A model generated the notes under the pieces. The model did no database searches. It saw nothing but the letters and a program-made list of their open reading frames with translations, and had not been told where the DNA came from. This document shows positions 10,852 to 46,475 of a stretch of 64,000 nucleotides of DNA, one piece after another. Source of the DNA: Deltaproteobacteria bacterium RIFOXYD12_FULL_56_24 (GTDB lineage Bacteria > Desulfobacterota > Desulfobulbia > Desulfobulbales > Desulfurivibrionaceae). Numbering within the stretch: the stretch's first letter is position 1; each line of letters starts with the position of its first letter. The stretch is taken from the NCBI GenBank assembly GCA_001799285.1, contig MGTD01000064.1, forward strand, positions 1 to 64,000. Reading direction: 5' to 3'. The position numbers were made by a program, and so were the translations under genes.

Positions 10852-10954
10852 GCATGCACTCCTTAAAAAAAACAAATATCCATTGGAAGCCGGGACAAGG
10901 TTCGTATTATGCTTCCATCCTGCACAAACATCAATAAATATTGCAAGTTTTTTC

Positions 10955-11006
10955 GTAACTATCCAGCTCAAGGCCGGAAACGAACAAAAACAACCCAAAC
11001 CGTTAC
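10955..11006 (+). mobile_element. Minimal 52-bp MITE (arm only) with perfect 8-bp target duplication
   Basis: The element starts GTAACTATCCAGCTCAAGG and ends CCCAAACCGTTAC. It is identical to the arm of the 153-bp subtype-B elements but lacks their hairpin part. It is flanked by GTTTTTTC on both sides (10947-10954 and 11007-11014). The short form with its own duplication suggests that the arm alone could be mobilised, or that the hairpin was lost later between conserved ends. Confidence 0.85.
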
Positions 11007-11331
11007 GTTTTTTCTTGCCCCGCCCCTGATGAGGTCCGGATACGCCAACATGCCGCACTTCTCTTCGCACAATAATGGCCGAGAGGCATTTCTGCGCCCG
11101 ACCCACTCCACAAACGCTGTTCGCCAGGCCGGCCGGGGAAAACCACCATAACTATCCTGAATATTTAATAAAAATAAGCTACAACTCGAATAATGTCGCG
11201 TTTTTTCATTGCAGGAAGACAGGTTGTCCTGTAAAAGTGGCGAAGCATTATCCAGGGGGGGGGAATACTTTCCCAGCTGAAATAATCCGACAAGTTGACC
11301 AATCGCCAGGCCGTTGCAACCAGATAATATC

Positions 11332-11636: not shown

Positions 11637-13220
11637 TTGCATATTTATCCAAAGATTTTCAGACTTCTTTTTCCTCCCCTCCCCAGGATTTTCCTACTTC
11701 TGGCGGCAGCCGCTCTTGCCGTGAGCAGCTTAACCGCTTGTGCCCCGCTGACAAGTCCCGACTCGGACATGATCGCCCCGGAAAGCAGCCCCAGGTCGAC
11801 GGAGAAGAAAAAGACCGCGCCCTACACCTTGAAACAAAAAAACTCTTTCCCGCGAGAAGAAGAACCTGCCCCGGAAGAAGCAACCCTCCAAGCGCTCAGC
11901 CTGGCGGTAAGCCCGGAAATAAGCGAGATGGCGCAAGTCAACCCATGGGACGTGCTTCCCTTGCTAAGCACGGGGGAAGAAATCGAGGCCTACGATTTCC
12001 CGATCACCATGAACGAACAGGTGGAATACTACCTGGATTTTTTCACAAACCGCAACCGCAAGAACTTTGCCCGCTGGCTCGCCCGCTCCTCCCGCTATCT
12101 GCCCATGATCAAGGAAGAGTTCGCCAGGGTTGGCCTTCCTCTGGACCTCGCCTATCTGCCCATGATCGAAAGCGGCTTCAACACCACCGCCATTTCCAGG
12201 GCCAGCGCGGTGGGGACCTGGCAGTTCATGCGCGCCACCGGCATGAGCTACGGCCTGACGGTCAACAAGTATGTTGACGAGCGCCGCGATCCGGTAAAAT
12301 CGACCAAGGCGGCGGCAGCCTATCTTTCCAAGCTGTACAAGGATTTTGACTCATGGCATCTGGCGGTGGCCGCTTATAATGCCGGGGAAGGAAGAATCAA
12401 ACGGGCCATGAAGCAATCCGAAAAAGATGATTTTTGGGAAATTGCCAAGAGCCAATACATCCACTCGGAAACAAAACTCTACGTTCCGCAGCTCATCGCC
12501 GCCATCATGATTGCCAAGGATCCCGGGAAATACGGATTTCACGACATTGACTATGAAAATCCCCTGGAATACGAAACCGTCCATGTGCCAAGGGGAACAC
12601 CGATCAAGGCTGTCGCCGTGGCCTGTAATCTTCCCGACGAGAAGATTATCGCCCTCAACCGGCATCTGTCCATGGCGATCACTCCGCCGTCCGAAATGGA
12701 TTACCCTCTGCGGGTGCCGCCCGGCAGCAAGGATCTGGTGATTAACAACCTCCCCAGGGTTCGCCCGGTCACAATCACCGAGTTTAACATTCATGAGGTG
12801 GGGCGAGGAGAAACCTTGACCACCATCAGGAAGAAATACAAGCTCAGTAAAACCACCCTGCTCAAGGCGAACAATCTCCAATATGAGCGGCTTTCTCTGG
12901 GGCAGCGGCTAAGAATCCCCCACCAGACAACCTCCTACAAACTGACCGACGAGCCTTTACAACTAGAACCGGCATCGGCCAGCATCACCTTGTTTTCCTC
13001 ACGCCCAGAGCTGATCGACACCCCGGCCGACAAGAAAAAGAAAGCCGCCAACGTCAAAAAGAAAAAGACGCAAAAACCCGGCGAAAAAAGAGTCCTTGCC
13101 TCGCCGGCCAAGGGGAAAAAACCGGCTTCGAAAGCCAAGACTTCTCCAGCCAAGAAAGAAAAGACCAAAAAATCCCCGAAGCCATCACCCAAAAAATCCG
13201 GCTCCGGCAAAAAGAAATAA
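11637..13220 (+). CDS. mltD: Membrane-bound lytic murein transglycosylase D-like lipoprotein
   Basis: Lytic transglycosylases cleave the glycan strand of peptidoglycan to 1,6-anhydro ends. The 527-residue product has a lipoprotein signal with lipobox LTAC (C35). An SLT domain follows with catalytic E178 in LPMIESGFNTTAISRASAVGTWQFM and the helix AVAAYNAGEGRI. A LysM peptidoglycan-binding repeat lies around residues 390-434, and the final 70 residues are very rich in Lys, Pro and Ala. The start is TTG at 11637; the ribosome site is weak and the exact start is uncertain. A MITE is inserted directly at the TAA stop. Confidence 0.88.
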   Translation: MHIYPKIFRLLFPPLPRIFLLLAAAALAVSSLTACAPLTSPDSDMIAPESSPRSTEKKKTAPYTLKQKNSFPREEEPAPEEATLQALSLAVSPEISEMAQVNPWDVLPLLSTGEEIEAYDFPITMNEQVEYYLDFFTNRNRKNFARWLARSSRYLPMIKEEFARVGLPLDLAYLPMIESGFNTTAISRASAVGTWQFMRATGMSYGLTVNKYVDERRDPVKSTKAAAAYLSKLYKDFDSWHLAVAAYNAGEGRIKRAMKQSEKDDFWEIAKSQYIHSETKLYVPQLIAAIMIAKDPGKYGFHDIDYENPLEYETVHVPRGTPIKAVAVACNLPDEKIIALNRHLSMAITPPSEMDYPLRVPPGSKDLVINNLPRVRPVTITEFNIHEVGRGETLTTIRKKYKLSKTTLLKANNLQYERLSLGQRLRIPHQTTSYKLTDEPLQLEPASASITLFSSRPELIDTPADKKKKAANVKKKKTQKPGEKRVLASPAKGKKPASKAKTSPAKKEKTKKSPKPSPKKSGSGKKK

Positions 13221-13372
13221 TAACTATCCAGCTCAAGGCCGGAAACGAACAAAAACAACCCAAACCGTAACTATCCAGCAGTGCCGTAGCTGCTAGGCAG
13301 AAGCCTGCGAAGTGTGCGGGTGCCCATGAGCAGGCTGATAACAACGCAGATGCGGTGCTGCTGGATAGTTAC
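13221..13372 (+). mobile_element. IS66-type MITE, subtype B, at the mltD stop codon
   Basis: The element starts TAACTATCCAGC (first G lost or shared) and ends GCTGGATAGTTAC. A second GTAACTATCCAGCAG opens the internal hairpin, which closes with CTGCTGGATAGTTAC. The flanks AGAAATAA (13213-13220) and AAAAATAA (13373-13380) match at 7 of 8 positions, and the left one ends with the mltD stop TAA. Sequence and length are nearly identical to the copy at 30786-30938. Confidence 0.85.
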
Positions 13373-17083: not shown

Positions 17084-17267
17084 GTAAGCGTTCAGCAGCA
17101 CCACATCTGCTTTGTCATCGGCATGCTTATGTGCAATAGCACACTTCGCAGGCCTCTTGGTCGGACACTTCTGCCGACGACTGACACGCGCATCTATCCG
17201 TGGGGCACTGCTGACGCTTACATTCCTGAGTTTATCTTAAATTTTGGTACCCCTGGTGAACGATTAC
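17084..17267 (-). mobile_element. IS66-type MITE, subtype D, with perfect 8-bp target duplication
   Basis: The 184-bp element begins GTAAGCGTTCAGCAG and ends GGTGAACGATTAC, flanked on both sides by CTTTCGGG (17076-17083, 17268-17275). The inner hairpin pairs GTAAGCGTTCAGCAGCACC with the downstream CTGCTGACGCTTAC. The arm that follows is about 46 bp, as in the other subtypes. The hairpin loop shares CACACTTCGCAGGC and the CATCTGC block with subtype B although the ends differ. It lies 38 bp before the hisHF start. Confidence 0.85.
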
Positions 17268-30785: not shown

Positions 30786-32255
<1,470 letters not shown>

Positions 32256-46269: not shown

Positions 46270-46475
46270 GTAACTACCAGCTCAAGGCCGGGAACGAACA
46301 AAAACAACCAAAACCGTAACTATCCAGCAGTGGTGTGCACCCAAAGGGCATAAGTCTCGTTTGGGCAGGCAAACTGCCCAACTCAGCTATAGCTGCTAGG
46401 CAGAAAAGCCGGCGAAGTGTTGGTGCCCATGAGCAGGCTGACAACAACGCAGATGCGGTGCTGCTGGATAGTTAC
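46270..46475 (+). mobile_element. IS66-type MITE, subtype B, between fliN and fliO, with nested hairpin
   Basis: The 206-bp element runs from GTAACTACCAGC (one base lost) to GCTGGATAGTTAC. Perfect direct repeats AGCCTGGC flank it (46262-46269, 46476-46483). It matches the copies at 13221 and 30786 except for a family-A double hairpin inserted in the internal stem (46335-46390). It lies inside the flagellar operon without breaking a gene. Confidence 0.9.
46335..46390 (-). repeat. Family-A double hairpin nested in the fliN-fliO MITE
   Basis: On the plus strand: CACCCAAAGGGCATAAG, then stem TTGGGCAG (46361-46368), loop GCAAA, stem CTGCCCAA (46374-46381), then CTCAGCTAT. Both strands of the stem carry the matching change relative to TTGAGCAG/CTGCTCAA. 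Nearly the same boundaries (ATAGCTGAG to GGGTGC) are found in the copy nested at 4947-5000. Confidence 0.78.

Follow-up and report, generated by a model that had tools for sequence, protein, structure and literature searches.

Insertion sequences of the IS66 family have terminal repeats that begin with GTAAGCG and 8-bp repeats (PMC11946415), and two IS66 elements with 8-bp repeats are tabulated in PMC3281130 (literature statements here refer to excerpts of the cited articles). The ISBst12-like element ISDge4 has the ends GTGACTACTCAGCA and GTAACTGCTCAGCA and an 8-bp repeat (PMC12898284). MITEAba12 (PMC6382973) and MITEPsy1 (PMC3189936) are short and gene-free, with terminal inverted repeats, many copies and target duplications of 9 bp and 4 bp, respectively. 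REPINs and REP singlets (PMC3116915) are miniature hairpin elements, and their incomplete copies are regarded as defunct remnants. Polymerases slip in vitro between direct repeats at the base of a hairpin, and sequence between short direct repeats placed there is deleted (PMC4134008).

The window (the whole stretch of DNA that was analysed, 64,000 nucleotides of contig MGTD01000064.1 from Deltaproteobacteria bacterium RIFOXYD12_FULL_56_24) belongs to a genome of 67 contigs and 3,036,381 bases. The 52-bp copy at 10955-11006 represents a real insertion, that of a small bacterial mobile element. Its parts, and full-length siblings in the window, were as follows:

10947..10954, plus strand: target duplication of 8 bp, left copy, GTTTTTTC; single copy in relatives
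10955..11001, plus strand: 47-bp arm, subtype B, with the outer terminal repeat GTAACTATCCAGC at 10955-10967; an identical arm occurs in eight other genome copies
11002..11006, plus strand: GTTAC, sole remainder of the right end and end of the probable 52-bp remnant; siblings have GTAAC and the hairpin here
11007..11014, plus strand: target duplication of 8 bp, right copy, GTTTTTTC; single copy in relatives
13220..13372, plus strand: full-length 153-bp sibling with the first base changed (ATAAC) and A-rich, imperfect flanks
30786..30938, plus strand: full-length 153-bp sibling (arm 30786-30832, hairpin block 30833-30938) with the perfect duplication GATTGCGG on both sides
46270..46475, plus strand: full-length sibling of 206 bp with a longer hairpin block and the perfect duplication AGCCTGGC

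Positions 10947-11014 read GTTTTTTC, the 47-bp arm with GTTAC, and GTTTTTTC again, both duplication copies being perfect. Because GTTTTTTC occurs often in the window (13 matches versus 3.73 expected), the word alone was weak evidence and the proof came from comparison. The left flank was present in 14 of 16 congeners (15 of the 17 genus genomes when its own genome is counted) and was not found in G013 and G004. In all 14 flank-bearing relatives homology reached the insertion point and no element followed; the 52 bp are therefore a real insertion. CTTGC followed the insertion point in 13 of these relatives, and GCAAGTTTTTTCTTGC was exact in ten, with slight differences in G009, G003 and G006 and rightward divergence in G011. 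Both flanks aligned in G010 and overlapped by exactly the 8 target bases. The original prediction had read 10955-11006 as a subtype B arm closed by GTTAC with a perfect 8-bp duplication, and this was borne out by the sequence and by the empty sites in 14 relatives.

The site lies upstream of a frame on the minus strand that we take to be cheA-like. The insertion interrupts a conserved inverted repeat 5' of this frame (window 10943-10954 and 11007-11018), which in relatives is GCAAG-TTTTTT-CTTGC, exact in ten of 14 and within a well conserved stretch. The split inverted repeat may be a regulatory site.

Arms of the same type were counted in the genome with a 21-base arm pattern at up to three mismatches, and all 49 matches were inspected. 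Forty-four continued to a downstream right end, located with a pattern permitting four errors over 19 bases: at 153 bp in 20 copies, at 207 bp in 14, and over a span of 109-227 bp altogether. The right-end 13-mer was an exact GTAACTATCCAGC in 37 of the 44 copies and one change away in seven. Flanking 8-mers, compared with a one-base shift of the start permitted, differed by at most one mismatch in 41 of the 44. Across 823,306 bases of the genome, 21 GTAAC...GTTAC pairs spaced up to 320 bp apart had flanking 8-mers with no more than one mismatch, versus none for four control word pairs.

A full sibling consisted of the arm and a strong hairpin between 8-bp duplications, with a total length that was mostly 153 or 207 bp. 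The block 3' of the arm carries the same repeat at its start and end (full copies hold three terminal-repeat copies), and it folds as a hairpin at whose base GTAAC pairs with GTTAC (-29.3 kcal/mol with z -5.3 and -31.5 kcal/mol with z -6.8 for two blocks of the window). Folding of the 52-bp copy revealed no structure of this type (z -0.4). Its 52 bases differed from those of eight other genome copies at one position, the A/T of GTAAC/GTTAC.

No right end was found for five of the 49 arms: L001 (the copy at 10955-11006), L004, L009, L012 and L021. L004, L009 and L012 stop at the inner GTAAC or shortly beyond it, have no duplication and look truncated; L021 continues into a hairpin with a damaged right end. 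These were rejected as arm-only copies, and the arm closed by GTTAC was represented among the 49 arms by L001 alone.

Further arm subfamilies, whose ends include GTAACCGTTC and GTAAGCGTTC, were present in the same genome. A related subfamily was represented in the window by a 184-bp element at 17084-17267 with a GTAAGCG-type end and the perfect duplication CTTTCGGG. A 106-bp hairpin block without an arm was found in G015 (L066, 1505-1610) with the perfect duplication AAAAAAAC; it may be capable of movement by itself, or the arm may have been lost between its direct repeats. Shortened hairpins between perfect outer duplications measured 77 bp in L123 (at the same place as L166, in G013) and 94 bp in L081, and these copies show that hairpins of the full-length family do erode.

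The GTAA start and the 8-bp duplication caused IS66 to be suspected as the mover. In a profile search of draft assemblies, the IS66 transposase profile PF03050 matched in 51 of the 146 genomes of the order and in none of the 17 genomes of the genus. Four of 30 IS66 loci examined had ends of the form GTAACTA(T/C)(C/T)CAGC: L272, L274, L275 and L276. Perfect 8-bp duplications flanked L272 (1,729 bp), L274 (1,608 bp) and L275 (1,595 bp), and the flanks of L276 had four mismatches. The frames of L272, L275 and L276 scored as IS66 transposases (Pfam, NCBIfam). The transposase-bearing L272 had GTAACTATCCAGC at both ends, and one end carried GTAACTATCCAGCTCAA, the first 17 bases of the subtype B arm. 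For these elements we infer the ISBst12 group label from ends, size and single frame.

The full-length family was like the ISBst12-like IS66 elements (ISDge4, PMC12898284; L272, L274, L275) in its ends, which are GTAACTATCCAGC or very close to it, and in its 8-bp duplications. Unlike them, it has no transposase frame (PF03050), its copies of 109-227 bp being too small for a transposase gene, and it adds a second, inner repeat and the hairpin block. It shared its small size, lack of genes, terminal inverted repeats, target duplications and many copies with MITEAba12 and MITEPsy1, but its duplications are 8 bp and its full copies consist of an arm and a hairpin with three terminal-repeat copies; the 52-bp copy appears to have lost one end. 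REPINs resemble the family in being miniature hairpin elements; tied to tyrosine (RAYT) transposases, they insert without target duplication, whereas the full-length family has 8-bp duplications and IS66-type ends.

No autonomous partner was found in the same genome, and a partner transposase is not strictly required of a MITE. The ends of the full-length family (no more than one change from GTAACTATCCAGC at any of the 44 right ends found) and its 8-bp duplications match IS66 elements of the order. It is therefore best classed as an IS66-type MITE for which the genus yielded no partner. The excerpted open-licence PMC literature yielded no description of an IS66-type nonautonomous miniature inverted-repeat family.

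Copies of the family were present in all 17 genomes of the genus, where it is abundant without a visible IS66 partner (PF03050). A parental insertion sequence was sought in the same 823,306 bases as GTAA...TTAC pairs at spacings of 321-4500 bp whose flanks and ends resembled each other. The sole match, C7:156920-159268 (in L187), had no recognised transposase and was rejected as a parent. It has an arm-like end and a hairpin-block end, with flanks alike at 7 of 8 bases, around one frame that presumably encodes a hybrid histidine kinase; this is possibly a gene carried between two ends, or chance. Outside the taxonomic family of the window's genome, a 127-bp copy in G026, from another family of the order (L071), had an arm nearly identical to the subtype B arm and the perfect duplication GATGTGAC, which suggests horizontal spread. 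G010 (L062) and G001 (L063) share one full-length copy, flanks included, which is an insertion kept by descent.

A search for further arm-only copies, as the original prediction had proposed, returned one more in the same genome with a wider pattern; the 16 congeneric genomes yielded none to exact patterns, which would miss copies with mutated ends. The second copy, C33:12317-12366 (minus strand, 50 bp), has the flanks TAAAACGA/GAAAACGA, alike at 7 of 8 bases, and stands after a frame that we take to be mazG-like and before one that we take to be rpsF-like. Thirteen relatives were compared at this site, and in the 12 that span it the element was absent. In the thirteenth, G013, the end of the mazG-like frame is missing, and the first 13 bases of the sequence abutting the target copy differ from the terminal repeat at three; equally close 13-mers occur at four of the 6,338 positions of that locus. 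Beyond these bases, the match of this sequence to the arm was no stronger than that of shuffled sequence (48-114 of 500 shuffles did as well). The sequence does not amount to a full arm with hairpin, and may be the decayed end of another, or the same, old insertion. L233 ends at a contig edge beside the second site.

The 50-bp arm was closest to a copy of another subfamily (score 38, versus 25 to the subtype B arm); the two arm-only copies therefore arose independently. Both have the junction of arm and GTTAC. The tail pattern of the second copy's subfamily had 12 matches in the genome, of which one ended in GTTAC, and that of a third subfamily had 12 matches there, of which none did.

Short units (<150 bp) gave 13 true matches, versus 1-5 in eight offset controls. 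Single short cases with one mismatch are insecure for this reason, and support for the 50-bp copy comes from the relatives. Given these controls, neither the one-mismatch copies L172, L174 and L175 nor L214, a 49-bp arm-less unit with flanks alike at 7 of 8 bases, was relied on. A 52-bp row in L203 was an artefact whose left flank falls inside the block of a full copy. Among the hairpin-only short units inspected (24-47 bp) none had immediate flanks within one mismatch, and several were the hairpin part of arm-and-block copies. In G013 a 37-bp unit GTAACC...GGTTAC lies between T-runs (L242, 1821-1857) and is missing from the same stretch in 12 relatives; it is perhaps another very short remnant.

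The original prediction left two options for the 52-bp copy: a precise deletion of the hairpin block, or movement of a unit for which 52 bp are enough. The first fits better, because arm-only copies were rare singletons (1/49, 1/12 and 0/12 by subfamily) and because 8 of the 13 right-end repeat bases are missing with the junction at the hairpin base. The 52-bp copy is probably a remnant whose hairpin was deleted after insertion. A full-length non-autonomous IS66-type element (47-bp arm and hairpin block) would have inserted upstream of the cheA-like gene and duplicated 8 bp of its target. Polymerase slippage at the hairpin base (GTAAC...GTTAC) would then have deleted about 101 bp, leaving the arm and GTTAC between intact duplications as a remnant without a working right end, presumably dead.

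Producing the arm/GTTAC junction from a full copy takes a 101-bp loss with GT shared at the break. Both breaks were varied across the neighbourhood of one copy only, which gave 392 distinct products including this one; homology was 2 bp in 16 of the products (arm/GTTAC and 15 others) and more in five. Chance alone would hardly give this product twice; therefore something positions the break, and the hairpin base, where GTAAC pairs with GTTAC, does so. Nearly precise excision of Tn10 is likewise a hairpin-promoted slippage deletion, but in the 52-bp copy one mismatch separates the five-base repeats, and the event is read from its product. Against loss after insertion stand the mere 2 bp of homology shared at the break, the lack of a sister copy documenting the step for either arm-only copy, and the ambiguous sequence of G013 beside the second site. 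The counter-case named in the original prediction was a related strain carrying a full-length copy at this site; none of the 14 relatives with the left flank had one, and none was found in relatives at the second site.

The absence of a known full-length stage at both sites would also suit loss of the hairpin during transposition, in which copying passed over the hairpin and the unit, shortened beforehand, inserted once; the junction would be the same as with slippage. This account is unlikely. It requires one completed transposition with a 5-bp right end, or else a skip that falls exactly after end recognition and before insertion.

Movement of the short form itself, with a transposase accepting a five-base right end, is improbable. 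Two copies from different arm subfamilies, with duplications that are perfect over 8 bp and alike at 7 of 8, and with sites mostly empty in relatives, are what such a unit would leave, and MITEs of about 50 bp fit the size range in the excerpt of PMC6382973. Yet neither subfamily has more than its single arm-only copy, and the 52-bp copy does not have terminal inverted repeats at both ends: its right end keeps the outer 5 of 13 bases, without the other eight that its siblings retain. The exact arm...GTTAC pattern matched once in the genus, at 10955-11006, and the same pattern with GTAAC matched 52 times, 27 of them in this genome. In the genome_contigs collection, from which this genome was possibly left out, the strict GTTAC pattern had no matches versus 35 for arm...GTAAC. 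Public records with the arm joined to GTAAC were metagenome-assembled genomes titled Desulfobulbaceae, Desulfoarculaceae, Desulfobacterales or Deltaproteobacteria, and the arm with GTWAC had no matches in viral contigs. Singleton status and the 5-of-13-base right end argue against movement of the short form, but neither forbids it.

Hairpin templates make Taq and Pfu slip in vitro (PMC4134008), and at least one hairpin copy in the assembly contains a run of N (L029). The apparent deletion could have arisen in the library or the assembly, with sequencing polymerases skipping a hairpin that the genome retains as part of a full element. Such an artefact is highly improbable, as the right end was read through after 44 of the 49 arms in the same assembly.

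Mobility of the short form, should it exist, would mean that five bases of right end are enough for an IS66-type transposase, and the 50-52-bp unit would lie near the lower end of the bacterial MITE size range, as excerpted, with one end almost absent. With deletion of the hairpin as the preferred reading, the two arm-only copies are natural examples, from different arm subfamilies, of a mobile-element hairpin apparently clipped off at the same base. The duplication left over is a scar that shows past insertion, and such scars are open to misreading as minimal transposons.
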